This document shows, one piece after another, positions 37,673 to 49,600 of a stretch of DNA of 64,000 nt (the first letter of the stretch is position 1; each line of letters begins with the position of its first letter). Both the position numbers and the translations under genes were made by a program. The DNA is from Lachnospiraceae bacterium (GTDB taxonomy: Bacteria; Bacillota; Clostridia; Lachnospirales; Lachnospiraceae): assembly GCA_022793195.1 (NCBI GenBank), contig JAAWCJ010000038.1, positions 1 through 64,000 of the forward strand, in the 5' to 3' direction. The notes under the pieces were generated by a model, which saw only the letters and a program-made list of their open reading frames with translations, was not told the origin of the DNA and ran no database searches.

Positions 37673-37942
37673 AGATACAGGGGGGCTGTTGCAAAATATC
37701 AGAATTTGTATGTGCCCGGCCCCCTTCCTGTCTTCGTGTTTGTCCGATAGGCAGATTTTGCAGGTTTTGTGAGTCTAGCGGCGCCAGTCCCGCTGACGGG
37801 CTTCTATGGAAGCGGCGGCTGGCGGCAATAGGTGGCGAAACAAAACCCAAAAATCAACGTGGACGAAAGCGAAAACAGGAAGGGGGCCGGGCACATATAA
37901 ATATCAGGATATTTTATATTTTGCAACAGCCCCCCTGTATCT
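37673..37942 (+). repeat. Foldback element A (270 nt), candidate structured RNA
   Basis: The ends are complementary over two long blocks: 37673-37699 with 37916-37942, and 37709-37736 with 37870-37898, together over 50 bp. The inside (about 37743-37876) holds further pairings, e.g. GGTTTTGT with ACAAAACC and GCGCCAG with CTGGCGGC. The core is about 90 percent identical, in the same orientation, to element B at 39993, but the outer stem sequence differs. No open reading frame fits. I do not recognise the family; it may be a structured non-coding RNA or a non-autonomous mobile element. Confidence 0.8.
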
Positions 37943-37952
37943 GAATTCCTAC

Positions 37953-37992
37953 AGATACAAATATCAGATTTATGTGCTGTAACAGCCCCCTT
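37953..37992 (+). repeat. Partial arm related to element A
   Basis: The stretch AAATATCAGATTTATGTGCTGTAACAGCCCCC repeats, with changes, the right outer arm of element A (AAATATCAGG ... GCAACAGCCCCC), and is followed by TTTTAT. It looks like a leftover arm of a second copy, or a terminator derived from one. It may itself end transcription ahead of the ibrA-like gene. Confidence 0.5.
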
Positions 37993-38122
37993 TTATCGTA
38001 TCCAGTCGAAAAATATAACAAATTTTGTCATATTTGGTTGAATTTGGAAATTTTATGTGATAGATTAACATACAAAAGCGTTTCCATAAACAGGTAATTT
38101 TGACTGGCGTAGGTGATTGGAT

Positions 38123-39454
38123 ATGGTACGAGAATATGTGGAGCAGAATGTGTATGAGGCTTTGCAGGAGCGTTTGAAATTTGTCTTTGATGAATTCGAG
38201 AACATTTACCTGTCTTTTTCAGGAGGGAAAGACAGCGGGCTGCTTTTAAATTTGGTGCTGGACTTTCAGAAGAAATATTATCCGGACAGGAAAATTGGCG
38301 TATTTCACCAGGATTTTGAGGCTCAATATACGGTGACGACGGAGTATGTGGAGCGGACTTTTGAGCGGATAAAGAATGATGTGGAACCTTACTGGGTATG
38401 CCTGCCCATGGCCACCAGGACGGCTTTAAGCAGCTATGAAATGTATTGGTATCCATGGGATGATACAAAAAAAGAAATCTGGGTCAGAAATATGCCGGAT
38501 AAGGAATATGTGATCAATCTGGAAAACAATCCCATGACCACTTACCGCTACCGGATGCATCAGGAGGATTTGGCCAAGCAGTTTGGAAGGTGGTACTGCC
38601 AGAGCCATGGAGAAAAAAAGACAGTTTGCCTTTTGGGGATGAGGGCTGACGAATCCCTGCAAAGGTACAGTGGATTTTTAAACAAGAAATATGGATATAA
38701 AGGGGAGTGCTGGATCAGCAGGCAGCATAAGGAGGTTTGGTGTGCCTCACCGATGTTTGACTGGTCGGCGGAAGATATCTGGCATGCCAATTACCTGTTT
38801 GAATATGATTATAACCGTCTTTATGACCTCTATTATATGGCGGGGTTAAAGGTCTCCCAGATGAGGGTGGCCTCCCCCTTCAATGATTATTCCAAGGATT
38901 CCCTCAATCTGTACCGCGTCATTGACCCGGAAATTTGGGTGAAGCTGGTGGGGAGAGTGCAGGGGGCCAATTTTGCCTGCATTTATGGCAGGACAAAAGC
39001 TATGGGTTATCGGAATATTTCTCTTCCGGAGGGGCATACCTGGAAATCTTATACCATGTTTCTTCTGGATACGCTCCCGGTGCGCCTGCGGAATAATTAT
39101 GCAAAAAAATTCAATGCCTCTATTGAATTCTGGCATAAAACCGGGGGAGGCCTGGATGAAGAAACCATCCGGGAATTGGAGGAGAGGGGCTACAAAATCC
39201 GTAGAAACGGCATTTCTAATTATACCCTCAGCAAGAAATCCAGAATCATTTTCCTTGAAAAAATTCCTGATGACACAGATGATATCAAATCTACAAAGGA
39301 CATTCCAAGCTGGAAAAGAATGTGTTACTGTATTTTGAAAAATGACCATATCTGCCGTTTTATGGGCTTTGGAATGACGAGGCAGCAGCAGAAACGGATT
39401 GATGCGATCAGAAGGAAATACAAAAGTGTGGAGGGGATGGAGAATGGAGTATAA
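38123..39454 (+). CDS. PAPS-reductase/PP-loop family protein with DUF3440 (IbrA-like)
   Basis: 443 aa from the ATG at 38123, AGGTG 7 nt upstream. The PP-loop SFSGGKDSGLLLNLVLD (near 34-50) and MRADESLQRY (near 172) place it in the PAPS reductase/sulfurtransferase superfamily of DndC and IbrA; the C-terminal half fits DUF3440. Such proteins adenylate a substrate to move sulfur or make another modification. It overlaps an IbrB-like ParB gene by 11 nt. In E. coli the IbrAB pair regulates immunoglobulin-binding proteins and sits in phage-derived islands. Its true reaction is unknown. Confidence 0.85.
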   Translation: MVREYVEQNVYEALQERLKFVFDEFENIYLSFSGGKDSGLLLNLVLDFQKKYYPDRKIGVFHQDFEAQYTVTTEYVERTFERIKNDVEPYWVCLPMATRTALSSYEMYWYPWDDTKKEIWVRNMPDKEYVINLENNPMTTYRYRMHQEDLAKQFGRWYCQSHGEKKTVCLLGMRADESLQRYSGFLNKKYGYKGECWISRQHKEVWCASPMFDWSAEDIWHANYLFEYDYNRLYDLYYMAGLKVSQMRVASPFNDYSKDSLNLYRVIDPEIWVKLVGRVQGANFACIYGRTKAMGYRNISLPEGHTWKSYTMFLLDTLPVRLRNNYAKKFNASIEFWHKTGGGLDEETIRELEERGYKIRRNGISNYTLSKKSRIIFLEKIPDDTDDIKSTKDIPSWKRMCYCILKNDHICRFMGFGMTRQQQKRIDAIRRKYKSVEGMENGV

Positions 39455-39980
39455 AAGCCCTGTTTATCATGTGATTTCAGTTCCCATTGACCGGATAAAA
39501 CCAAATACTTATAATCCCAATACCGTGGCGCCGCCGGAGATGCGGCTGCTCTATGAAAGTATCAAAGCCGACGGCTATACGATGCCCATTGTCTGTTATT
39601 ATAACCAGGCGGCGGAAACGTATATCATTGTTGACGGGTTCCACCGCTACCGGATTATGCTGGAGCATCCGGACATTTATGAGAGGGAGCAGGGGATGCT
39701 GCCGGTTTCGGTCATCAATAAACCCATTGACCAGAGGATGGCCAGCACTATCCGCCACAACCGTGCCAGGGGAAACCATGATGTAGATTTGATGAGTAAT
39801 ATTGTGAAAGAGCTTCATGAGCTGGGGCGTTCCGATGCCTGGATTTCCAAACATTTGGGGATGGACCGGGATGAAATTCTGCGCCTGAAGCAGATTACGG
39901 GCCTGGCGGCTCTATTTAAAGATGTGAAGTTTGGAAAAGCCTGGAGGCCGGCGGACGGTACAGAAGAGGAAGATTTATGA
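39444..39980 (+). CDS. ParB/Srx-domain protein (IbrB-like)
   Basis: 178 aa from the ATG at 39444, GAGGGG 7 nt upstream; the overlap with the previous gene suggests coupled translation. ParB N-terminal fold with NTYNPNTVAPPEM near 20, then YESIKADGYTMPIV and VDGFHRYRIM (near 62-71), followed by RHNRARGNHD. ParB-fold enzymes of this type bind CTP or hydrolyse ATP. The helix-turn-helix-like tail (DAWISKHLGMDRDEILRLKQITGL) could bind DNA. It functions with the PP-loop partner by all known contexts; the role is not established. Confidence 0.85.
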   Translation: MEYKSPVYHVISVPIDRIKPNTYNPNTVAPPEMRLLYESIKADGYTMPIVCYYNQAAETYIIVDGFHRYRIMLEHPDIYEREQGMLPVSVINKPIDQRMASTIRHNRARGNHDVDLMSNIVKELHELGRSDAWISKHLGMDRDEILRLKQITGLAALFKDVKFGKAWRPADGTEEEDL

Positions 39981-39992
39981 CAACATATTCCA

Positions 39993-40244
39993 TAGTGGGA
40001 TTGTTGTAGATATTCGGAGTTGTACCTGACCGGAGTCCCTGCCTGTCTTCGTTTTCGTCCGATAGGCAGATTTTGCAGGTTTTGTGAGGCTAGCGGCGCC
40101 AGTCTCTCTGACCGGATTCTATGGAAGCGGTGGCTGGCGGCAATAAGCGGCGAAACAAAACCTAAAAATCAACGTGGATGAAAGCGAAGACAGGCAGGGA
40201 CTCCGGGCAGATACAATTCCGGATATTTTACAACAGTCCCACTA
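39993..40244 (+). repeat. Foldback element B (252 nt), second copy of element A core
   Basis: The left arm (39993-40056) is complementary to the right arm (about 40184-40244) along almost its whole length, with differences mainly of G-U or compensated type. The core (40058-40191) matches element A in the same orientation, including the blocks GATAGGCAGATTTTGCAGG and AAAATCAACGTGGA. It begins 12 nt after the ibrB-like stop. With element A it brackets the ibrAB pair as direct copies. It also separates ibrB from the convergent asrC. Confidence 0.8.
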
Positions 40245-40266
40245 TAGGCATAGGGGGTTAAAAGAC

Positions 40267-41238
40267 TCAGTCGTAACGGATACCATCCCAGTAAATACAC
40301 TCATTTACAATGGTTTCCGGGAGAAGCTCGACGCCGTCAAGGGCCCATTTTTTGTATTCGGCAAACCCTGTCCGGTCGATGATATAGCCGATATGCTCTT
40401 TGCCGCCGGGGGCGGACGGGTCAATGTATTCCTTGACAAAGCGGTAAGTGTTGAGGATAATTTTTACAATACTGTCTTCATCGGCCCAGACAAGGAAATC
40501 TTTTCCCAGGCGGGGGTTGCGCTTTCCCGTTCGTCCCATGATGGACAGGCGGTAATATTTCTTTTCACTTCTGGTAAAAGCCCTGGTGGGGCATTTTGTG
40601 ATGCAGACGCCGCAGCCAATGCATTTTTCCGCATCGCGGACAATTTTATAGTTTTCCATGCGAAGGGCATCCACGGAGAGGCCTTTGCAGCCTTTGATGC
40701 AGGCTTTGCAGGCCACACAGCGGGACGGGTCATATTGGGGCATGGTCATGCCGATGATTCCGAAATCGTGGAGACGGACTTTGGCGCAATCATTGGGACA
40801 GCCGGTGAGGGCGATTTTAAAATGGAGGTCATTGGGAAAAATTTCTTTTTCAATCCGCTTGGCGAATTTTGCCGTATTGTAATTGGCAAAAGGGCAGACA
40901 TTGTTTCCAATACAGGCGCTCACATTCCTTGTGCCGGAAGCGGGGTATCCGCCGCCTTTTTCCGTCTGGTTGATGTCCAGAAGTTCGATGATAGGCTGGA
41001 GCATCTCATTGATGGCGTCCATGTCTTCCAGGCGTATCCCCTCGATTTCAAAACCCTGCCTGGTGGTCAGGTGGACAATGCCGTTTCCGTAGGTTTCAGC
41101 GATTTTTTGTACCATACCGAGGATTTCCGCTTTCAGATAGCCGCCGGGCACACGGATACGGGAAGCTCCGATTCCTCTTTCCTTGCTGATTCTGTATGCA
41201 TTTTTCTTGGCTTTTTTCGTATTAATATCTAAACTCAC
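40267..41238 (-). CDS. asrC: Anaerobic sulfite reductase subunit C
   Basis: 323 aa. Siroheme/[4Fe-4S] ligands in CIGNNVCPF (near 108-116) and TGCPNDCAK (near 143-151), then two ferredoxin-type clusters (CVACKACIKGC near 171; CIGCGVCITKC near 198). It is the catalytic subunit that reduces sulfite to sulfide with NADH-derived electrons from AsrA and AsrB. It lies 11 nt behind asrB and is the last gene of the operon. Confidence 0.96.
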   Translation of the reverse strand: MSLDINTKKAKKNAYRISKERGIGASRIRVPGGYLKAEILGMVQKIAETYGNGIVHLTTRQGFEIEGIRLEDMDAINEMLQPIIELLDINQTEKGGGYPASGTRNVSACIGNNVCPFANYNTAKFAKRIEKEIFPNDLHFKIALTGCPNDCAKVRLHDFGIIGMTMPQYDPSRCVACKACIKGCKGLSVDALRMENYKIVRDAEKCIGCGVCITKCPTRAFTRSEKKYYRLSIMGRTGKRNPRLGKDFLVWADEDSIVKIILNTYRFVKEYIDPSAPGGKEHIGYIIDRTGFAEYKKWALDGVELLPETIVNECIYWDGIRYD

Positions 41239-44066: not shown

Positions 44067-44096
44067 AAATACCGACAGTAATATAAAATAAAAAAA

Positions 44097-44209
44097 GTTC
44101 TTCGGGGCGGGGTGAGAGTCCCCACCGGCGGTATAGTCCGCGAACTGCTTTTTGCAGCTGACCCGGTTGGATTCCGGGACCGACAGTATAGTCTGGATGA
44201 GAGAAGAAT
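44097..44209 (+). promoter_or_regulatory. FMN riboswitch (RFN element)
   Basis: The conserved RFN blocks are all present: TTCGGGGCGGGGTGAGAGTC, CCCACCGGCGGTAT, AGTCCGCGA, TGACCCGGTT.GATTCCGGGACCGACAG, AGTCTGGATGAGAGAAG. The closing P1 stem pairs the TTCTT and AAGAA ends. It binds FMN and turns off the downstream riboflavin transporter by termination. It ends 213 nt before the ribU start. Confidence 0.97.
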
Positions 44210-44279
44210 TTGTGCCTGTGCAGCTTGTACCGGTGTTCCCCGCGCGGGGGGAACCGGGACAGCGGCGGTATATGGGAGC

Positions 44280-44422: not shown

Positions 44423-45244
44423 ATGAAACGAGAAAAATTGCTTACTGTGAAAAACCTTGTCACCATAGCGGTACTGGCGGCAGTGGCCGCGGTGCTTATG
44501 TATCTGGAATTCCCGCTATGGTTCGCACCGCCTTTTTACGAGCTGGATTTCAGTGAAATTCCTGTGCTGGTGGGAGCATTTTCCATGGGGCCGGCTGCCG
44601 GCTTTGTGATTGAGGTTTTAAAGGTGGTTATCAAGCTTCTTCTGAAAGGCTCCACCACCATGGGAGTGGGCGACTGGGCAAACCTTTTGATTGGCTGTTC
44701 CCTGGTGATTCCGGCAGCCATGATTTATACGAAAAACCGTACCAGAAAAGGGGCAATTATCGGCCTTGTGGTGGGAACCCTCACCATGGCCTTTGTGGGG
44801 TGCTTCCTGAATGGCTACGTGCTTCTTCCTACATATGCCCAGGCCTTTGAGGGGGCATGGCAGGGGTTTTTAGTCATGGGGGCTTTTACGGCAGCGGTAG
44901 CCTTTCCTGTATTTTTCTTTTATGGCAGGGAGAAAGGGGAACATCCGATTCTGATTGGGATGGTGGTGGAGATTTTGATTCTTGCAGCGGCCATTGTCCT
45001 GATGAATGTACTGAAACTTTTTTCTGGCGACAGCCTGGCCGGATTAATCAGTATGGGAACAGCTGTGAACCCTGCCATTACGGGAATTTGGAGTTTTGTA
45101 CTGCTGGCTGTACTGCCCTTTAATCTGTTAAAAGGGACAATAGTTTCTCTAATTACTGTTTTGATTTATAAACGGATTCGAGTTATAATAAAACAGGCTG
45201 GTGATTCCGGGAGAGTGTCCGGAAATAGTTTTGAGAAGCTTTGA
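44423..45244 (+). CDS. ribU: ECF-type riboflavin transporter substrate-binding protein (RibU)
   Basis: 273 aa with six membrane segments. The N-terminal LMYLEFPLWFAPPFYELDFSEIPVL segment and the GDWANLLIG region are typical of RibU S-components. Control by the FMN riboswitch makes riboflavin the clear substrate. The ECF energising module is encoded elsewhere. GGAGG precedes the ATG. The charged C-terminal tail (245-273) is longer than usual. A strong terminator follows. Confidence 0.93.
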   Translation: MKREKLLTVKNLVTIAVLAAVAAVLMYLEFPLWFAPPFYELDFSEIPVLVGAFSMGPAAGFVIEVLKVVIKLLLKGSTTMGVGDWANLLIGCSLVIPAAMIYTKNRTRKGAIIGLVVGTLTMAFVGCFLNGYVLLPTYAQAFEGAWQGFLVMGAFTAAVAFPVFFFYGREKGEHPILIGMVVEILILAAAIVLMNVLKLFSGDSLAGLISMGTAVNPAITGIWSFVLLAVLPFNLLKGTIVSLITVLIYKRIRVIIKQAGDSGRVSGNSFEKL

Positions 45245-49339: not shown

Positions 49340-49600
49340 TTTATAAAACCGCTGTCAAATTTTGCGGGAAGGTTCGTTTCCGGTACTGGCGCCATGAATC
49401 TTGAAGTTCTAAAATGTTCTGATTTAGATACCGGTTCCCCTGCAACCGGCTTATGATCCGCCGTCCATGGCGTCATAAGCCTTTTCCGGACTTCCTGTCC
49501 GGAAATTGCAGTATTTTTGCAGAACATTAAGAACTTCTAAGATTCGCGGCGATGTACCGGACACGAAACCTCCCGCAAAATTTGACGAGACTTTTATAAA
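49340..49600. repeat. Foldback element C (261 bp), multi-branched, unknown family
   Basis: Terminal arms of about 75 bp are complementary with few mismatches. The left arm starts TTTATAAAA, then GTCAAATTTTGCGGGA and later CTTGAAGTTCT.AAATGTTCTG; the right arm mirrors it and ends at 49600. Inside are two clean hairpins (49448-49481, GGCTTATGA...TCATAAGCC; 49483-49505, TTCCGGA...TCCGGAA) plus a TGCAA/TTGCA pairing, so a transcript would form a branched cloverleaf-like fold. No coding frame. Unrelated in sequence to elements A and B. Confidence 0.8.

Follow-up and report, generated by a model that had tools for sequence, protein, structure and literature searches.

A dispersed foldback element of Lachnospiraceae with a conserved, folded core and copy-specific arms

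Introduction

HEARO, the omega RNA of IscB and IsrB, is a large structured RNA tied to mobile DNA. An earlier note compared with this RNA a foldback element that occurs in two copies, called here A and B, in a 64,000-nt stretch of DNA (hereafter the window) from a Lachnospiraceae bacterium (GCA_022793195.1, contig JAAWCJ010000038.1, positions 1 to 64,000). Its genome of 2.69 Mb is labelled G000; other genomes and sequence loci carry G and L numbers. Apart from a general likeness in size, structure and association with mobile DNA, the comparison found no support: no HEARO or omega RNA covariance model matched elements A and B, and the four genes beside them, in which an IscB-, IsrB- or TnpB-like gene was looked for, are of other families, with no nuclease-like gene adjoining either copy. 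None was matched among ten proteins from six loci of distant genera either.

Of the kinds that we came across, the repeats bcr1-bcr18 of Bacillus cereus come nearest. Among them, bcr1-bcr3 of the B. cereus group are presented as similar to miniature inverted-repeat transposable elements (MITEs) and bcr10 and bcr18 as having a conserved secondary structure (PMC3446304), and the mobility and copy number of these repeats are also treated (PMC6542083). As far as these descriptions go, and the comparison is one of descriptions only, the bcr repeats share with the present family an intergenic position, many copies and restriction to one group; here, mobile-type dispersal, a deeply conserved single-strand core, matched in 17 genera, and copy-specific foldback arms are united in one element. 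Bacterial MITEs are also short and non-coding, with inverted-repeat ends and many copies, traits found here together with one insertion flanked by a 9-bp repeat, a putative target duplication. In the present family, however, it is the middle that is conserved and not the ends, which vary by copy and by species, and we found no parent transposase, transposase families not having been searched for. Dispersed intergenic hairpins are likewise the mark of repetitive extragenic palindromes (REPs), bacterial interspersed mosaic elements and stem-loop repeat families, of which 92 have been described (PMC2267715); REPs are given a length of 20-40 bp in another source (PMC3733652), whereas the elements here measure roughly 250-340 nt and have a structured core. 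No published description of the family was recognised in the literature searched, which covered no preprints and few subscription journals.

In this work we propose, with a probability of roughly 0.55, that A and B belong to a mobile, non-autonomous foldback element with a new class of structured RNA, which would be transcribed. This structured element has many copies and no entry in Rfam 15, and matches to it occur in 17 genera of a bacterial family that is a major one in the gut.

Two copies of a foldback element

Element A occupies 37673-37942 (+) and element B 39990-40248 (+), each being a full foldback with arms and core. They share a direct repeat of 163 nt at 91% identity in the same orientation (37722-37884 and 40037-40199, spacing 2315 nt). 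The minimum free energy of A is -168.3 kcal/mol (z -16.3) and that of B -160.8 kcal/mol (z -16.9), and in neither case was any of 200 dinucleotide shuffles as good. We could therefore confirm the two same-orientation foldback copies claimed previously. It had also been said that the outer stems differ between A and B and yet pair within each copy, and this is indeed so: the inverted arms of A at 37704-37745/37861-37902 and 37654-37699/37916-37961 are 88% and 83% complementary, and those of B at 40010-40060/40176-40226 and 39992-40008/40229-40245 are 88% and 94% complementary.

The conserved core of about 116 nt (GATAGG...ACGTG) lies at 37746-37861 (+) in A, with a mean column identity of 87% in an alignment of 40 copies, and at 40061-40176 (+) in B, where it was placed by the direct repeat and the same alignment. 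Next to it is a proximal stem, whose 5' side in A (37731-37745, +) pairs with about 37862-37877 (+), the 3' side, as placed by the copy alignment and the count of arm mismatches. Farther out, the arm motif GGGGCTGTTGCAAAATAT is matched exactly at 37682-37699 (+) and, inverted, at 37916-37933 (-), and two direct repeats can be read in A, ATATCAGAAT on the left (37696-37705, +) and ATATCAGGAT on the right (37901-37910, +).

As had been noted, no convincing open reading frame (ORF) lies inside. One ORF overlapping B (40174-41232, +) runs opposite to a sulfite-reductase-like gene (40267-41238, -) on the other strand, and the ORFs of at least 70 codons which, according to our own ORF caller, span the core in 23 of 67 copies of this genome are presumed to be chance. 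Covariance models of Rfam 15 were run on A, B and 17 loci of relatives and own copies; no family reached its gathering cut-off and the only matches, below threshold, were to eukaryotic microRNAs, in agreement with the earlier view that the elements belong to no known family.

The core is kept as a folded single strand

A covariance model, R1, with 47 base pairs was built on 40 of 41 distinct copies, a copy at a contig edge (L032) being left out. It matches A at 37731-37879 (167.3 bits) and B at 40046-40194 (165.2 bits). Homologs had been expected to covary, and they do. In relatives of the same genus, 95.0% of the R1 pair cells hold standard pairs, versus 73.4% after shuffling, and both partners have changed in 43 of the 47 pairs; for other genera the figures are 93.5% versus 65.7%, with both-side changes in 42 of 47. 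None of 500 shuffles reached the value of either group, and controls with a slid structure were 38-48% paired. These alignments were fitted to R1, which favours the model, and related rows are not independent; all pair and mismatch counts in this work are counts of copies and not of independent changes on a tree.

Selection on an RNA folded from one strand should favour G-U intermediates. In a plain MAFFT alignment, we counted by hand 63 G-U versus 7 A-C mismatches in the core; two pairs give 36 of the 63, and without them the ratio is 27:7. The model-fitted alignments gave 110:30 in G000 and 84:12 in the genus relatives, with antisense rows kept in alignments A2 and A3, an effect that runs counter to the strand bias. 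Since G-U is preferred over A-C on one strand, this strand is the one that folds, under selection. Unpaired core motifs around GATAGGCAG, GAGCATAGCG, ATAGGCGGCG and AACGTG recur across genera in slightly changed form, only part of their bases reaching 90% in the alignment of distant genera; their recurrence predicts a specific partner. A single strand of fixed polarity is thus maintained in folded form, over the core of about 116 nt and about 15 bp of proximal stem, in different species and genera.

No one-strand signature in the outer arms

We aligned both arms of each copy and scored G-U and A-C mismatches alike. Of 124 copies, 17 were skipped (core ends not both anchored), leaving 58 of G000 and 49 of relatives; counts binned by distance were also filtered on local pairing. 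Within 15 bp of the core, the G-U:A-C ratio is 46:13 in G000 (p 2e-5) and 35:13 in relatives (p 0.002), and the proximal stem is thus a zone of one-strand bias. Beyond 15 bp it is 104:120 and 56:44, respectively, with 26:13 (p 0.053) in the 15-30 bp bin of the relatives, and it is 31:27 in the arms of distant genera, whose starts were placed roughly. Over whole arms of relatives with the local-pairing filter on, G-U is favoured 91:57 (p 0.006), driven by the part near the core; when the filter is removed the ratios are 194:177 in G000 and 142:121 in relatives. Such a parity in the outer arms means that one-strand RNA folding does not explain them. The proposal of an RNA structure under selection therefore stands for the core and the first 15 bp, but the argument that had been drawn for it from the outer stems does not. 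The parity fits better with template switching, or with a role for both strands, such as two-way termination or cruciform formation. By template switching during DNA replication, arms can be matched anew in a single step, and the process has been proposed as a source and keeper of hairpins (PMC8794818).

Arms can be nearly perfect: 46 of 48 pairs in L158, 61 of 64 in L160, 50 of 51 in L161, 47 of 50 in L164 and 52 of 55 in L137 of G000. At a site shared by G000 and G004, with flanks 83-88% identical and a core 81% identical, 9 of 24 arm pairs have changed on both sides and stay Watson-Crick, 13 are unchanged and none has changed singly to G-U or A-C. This is one of four copy pairs between species, which are 79-84% identical along 564-951 nt, both flanks aligning only in G000/G004 and the right flank only in the other three. 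Their 96 arm pairs comprise 58 unchanged, 16 with paired changes, 5 changed singly to G-U, 4 singly to A-C, 10 with single changes of other kinds, a class inflated by an indel in L171/L188, and 3 otherwise. Three further cross-genome pairs (G010/G004 twice, G009/G005) are 96-99.9% identical.

Within one element, then, the core bears a strand-specific G-U signature, the outer arms do not, and copies at shared sites change their arms pairwise in place. The family is thereby a natural test bed for the share of compensatory covariation that is due to RNA selection and to DNA template switching. The idea that arms are perfected at each birth of a copy was rejected for the subfamily of A, in which near-identical copies share, as judged by eye, arm mismatches and an asymmetric bulge. 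As a separate observation, the outermost flanks of two copies (L004, L013) and of a solo hairpin (L244) have in common a further inverted sequence, similar to TTGAGTTTCC.TATTTT, which gives the impression of hairpins within larger hairpins.

Size and spread of the family

A and B belong to a dispersed family. A nucleotide search of their own assembly gave 51 matches, some antisense or partial (40 of 82 candidates scored). With R1 we obtained 69 matches, two of them antisense to others, that is at least 67 loci; this is a lower bound since only 150 of 1736 candidates were scored. Four further copies of G000 are 95-97% identical to A across 250-255 nt, so the expansion of the family looks partly recent.

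In the same genus, R1 matched 6 of 10 other genomes (7 of 11 counting G000), with 33 matches listed in G004, 26 in G010, 14 in G006, 12 each in G007 and G009 and 5 in G005, and none in G001, G002, G003 and G008. Of these 102 listed matches, 57 copies were fetched and analysed. Across 299 Lachnospiraceae genomes, with only 10 candidates scored per genome, 17 had matches, namely G000 and 16 genomes that each represent another genus, among them G307 and G267 with 8 and 4 matches listed. The sequence was inspected for 10 of these 16; the other six (G149, G151, G198, G207, G255, G314) rest on the model score (E 1e-6 to 1e-9). A family confined to one genus is ruled out by these 16 genera. That view came from a strict pattern too narrow for a divergent subfamily, which gave 24 matches, among them a candidate in Shapirobacteria (L059). 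Element A had no match in plasmid and phage collections, and one strict pattern run on viral contigs gave none.

In the single-contig genome G307, nine copies (L276-L283) have AT-rich arms unlike between copies and closely paired within each. In one variant of the element the core is interrupted at a single point by an additional hairpin of roughly 45-95 nt (GTTATGAGCACTT...), as seen in copies of G000 (L143, L144, L141, L146, L032, L142, L145) and of relatives (L046, L130).

Gene context

Gene context was taken from our own ORF caller, which uses no annotation and misplaces some genes, such as the downstream neighbour of B. Among the 67 copies of G000, 34 lie between convergent genes, 2 between divergent genes, 14 between tandem genes on the same strand as the element and 15 between tandem genes on the opposite strand, and 2 are unclassed. 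The corresponding numbers are 17, 6, 16, 12 and 6 in genus relatives and 6, 1, 8, 9 and 3 in distant genera. Convergent and divergent gaps are expected to be about equally common on a chromosome, so the observed 34:2 indicates a strong preference for gene 3' ends in G000, which is weaker elsewhere. The strand of the element shows no bias relative to that of the genes (14 vs 15).

A and B themselves follow genes: A starts 27 nt downstream of a stop codon, and B sits between convergent genes, about 10 nt past the stop of a ParB-like gene and about 20 nt short of the end of the opposing gene. The 3' arm leads into a run of T in 17 of 58 copies of G000 (control 5.7%) and in 7 of 48 of relatives (control 3.9%), and a run of A before the 5' arm is not enriched in G000 (6 of 58, control 6.7%) but is enriched in relatives (11 of 48, control 5.5%). 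The ten proteins at six distant loci comprise nine of ordinary families and one without a family match; the neighbours include ribosomal protein L9, DnaB, a pyrophosphatase, an ABC transporter, a flavoprotein, an amidohydrolase, an aldolase, a MutS-like protein and an exporter. In the loci looked at, the element has no fixed neighbour.

Insertion sites and solo hairpins

We compared 12 sites of G000 with relatives and found a clean insertion at one. The copy at G000:C38:22350 is absent from G007 and G006, whose sequence runs unbroken across the site, and in G000 it is flanked on both sides by AAAAATATG, a 9-bp repeat. Elsewhere, the sites of A, B and the first copy of L136 are occupied in G007 by the short remnant of a hairpin or by a different short hairpin. 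G007 has an outer hairpin of reduced length at the sites of L028 and the second copy of L014, a degraded copy at that of the second copy of L136, and sequence without a recognisable element at those of the second copy of L031, two L151 copies, L002 and L011. The family is thus dispersed and intergenic, with a majority of the G000 copies near the 3' ends of genes, and it includes at least one insertion that two relatives lack. The contrast drawn earlier with a simple duplicated DNA repeat holds in that the core structure is selected, but the element is also repeated at scattered sites and shows signs of mobility.

Many short solo hairpins, often of 47 bp and with only the outer-arm motif GGGGCTGTTGCAAAATAT, occur in G000 (e.g. 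L242-L247) and G007 (L203-L209). Deletion between ATATCAGAAT and ATATCAGGAT would yield such 47-bp hairpins; the reverse order, insertion of the element into a solo hairpin, is possible. A second repeat of about 120-150 bp lies beside one copy of G000 (L151:11379-11512) and in at least ten places in G007.

Interpretation and rival explanations

If A and B are copies of a mobile element with a structured RNA, the core would be transcribed, and trans-acting machinery responsible for the spread or upkeep of the element would recognise its fold. The outer arms would stay complementary through repeated re-matching of the palindrome by template switching in DNA replication, and because gene ends may tolerate the outer hairpin or employ it to terminate transcription; internal deletion would often leave this hairpin alone. 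More tentatively, the whole family may consist of selfish elements for which the folded core, of RNA or single-stranded DNA, serves as a handle for propagation, the arms being rewritten as matched pairs by template switching to give each copy a private, near-perfect foldback; we hold this broader picture to be possible and not probable.

Several results speak against the proposed mobile element with a structured RNA. G-U pairs are rare in the core of distant genera (15 versus 641 Watson-Crick, with 6 A-C), below what is expected of RNA. None of the eleven other sites of G000 compared with relatives is both cleanly empty there and marked by a target repeat, and flanking 9-bp repeats are not enriched across copies (1 of 58 versus 0.99 in controls), a count that leaves a general 9-bp target duplication unsupported. 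We found no mobilising enzyme, transposase families not having been searched for, and no gene-sized pair of the same ends in L148 or in the ten end-motif loci read, which are part of the matches listed, apart from a weak one in L148 enclosing a sensor-kinase-like ORF. Some copies are old and common to species, which fits a settled function as well. Finally, a promoter scan of the window region gave 9 promoter-like sites versus 5.3 in shuffles, one of them within B but on the minus strand.

The main rivals are a function for the host at gene 3' ends and a single-stranded DNA substrate. In the first, the element would be a domesticated 3'-end RNA or a two-way terminator, and its core would tune decay or termination of the neighbouring mRNAs. 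The excess of convergent over divergent sites, the T-runs after the 3' arm, the existence of core-less outer hairpins, which are all that G007 has at some sites, and the copies kept at one site across species agree with such a role. A terminator, however, could do without the conserved core and without arms as long as 50 bp or more, and the A-runs expected before the 5' arm of a two-way terminator are enriched only in the relatives. The lack of orientation bias, the unrelated neighbours and the sites of the first copy of L031, of L002 and of L011, which hold no related element in G007 and G006, also count against a host function, and we regard it as unlikely. A terminator scan of the window region gave 1 site versus 2.6 in shuffles, with a loop limit that excludes the foldback structure.

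Integron attC sites and REP sequences are hairpin substrates of enzymes that act on one strand. By analogy, the strand that folds could be single-stranded DNA, a hairpin substrate for a one-strand recombinase or an HUH-type transposase. The one-strand bias would be accounted for, and so would the absence of orientation bias relative to genes, the low G-U in the core of distant relatives and arms that are complementary on both strands. The 9-bp repeat at the one clear insertion suggests instead a DDE-type cut in duplex DNA, and no HUH or recombinase enzyme was seen, none having been searched for by family; to this explanation we give slightly less credence than to a host function. An ordinary MITE-like DNA repeat, with covariation solely from template-switching correction of a palindrome and no single-strand function, would suit the near parity of G-U and A-C in the outer arms and the proposed role of template switching in hairpins, but it is highly improbable given that the core is no simple palindrome, that its unpaired motifs recur across genera and that its mismatches prefer G-U.

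Other features of the window

The genes flanking A and B encode DUF3440, ParB_N, TIM-barrel and sulfite reductase proteins. Between the two elements lie a PAPS-reductase/DUF3440 gene (38123-39454, +) and a ParB_N-like gene just below the Pfam cut-off (39447-39980, +), a pair that we take to resemble IbrA/IbrB of E. coli. A composite transposon made of A, B and this pair was rejected, since in G007 the pair is present within an unchanged gene order although neither full element is there, but a short hairpin remnant at the site of A and a different short hairpin at that of B. DNA matching the pair is also present in G001, G003 and G008, genomes without any R1 match.

Two known RNAs were found elsewhere in the window: an FMN riboswitch at 44094-44212 (+), upstream of a membrane-protein-like ORF (44423-45244), and a TwoAYGGAY RNA at 49389-49552 (-), with 87.9 bits against a cut-off of 43.

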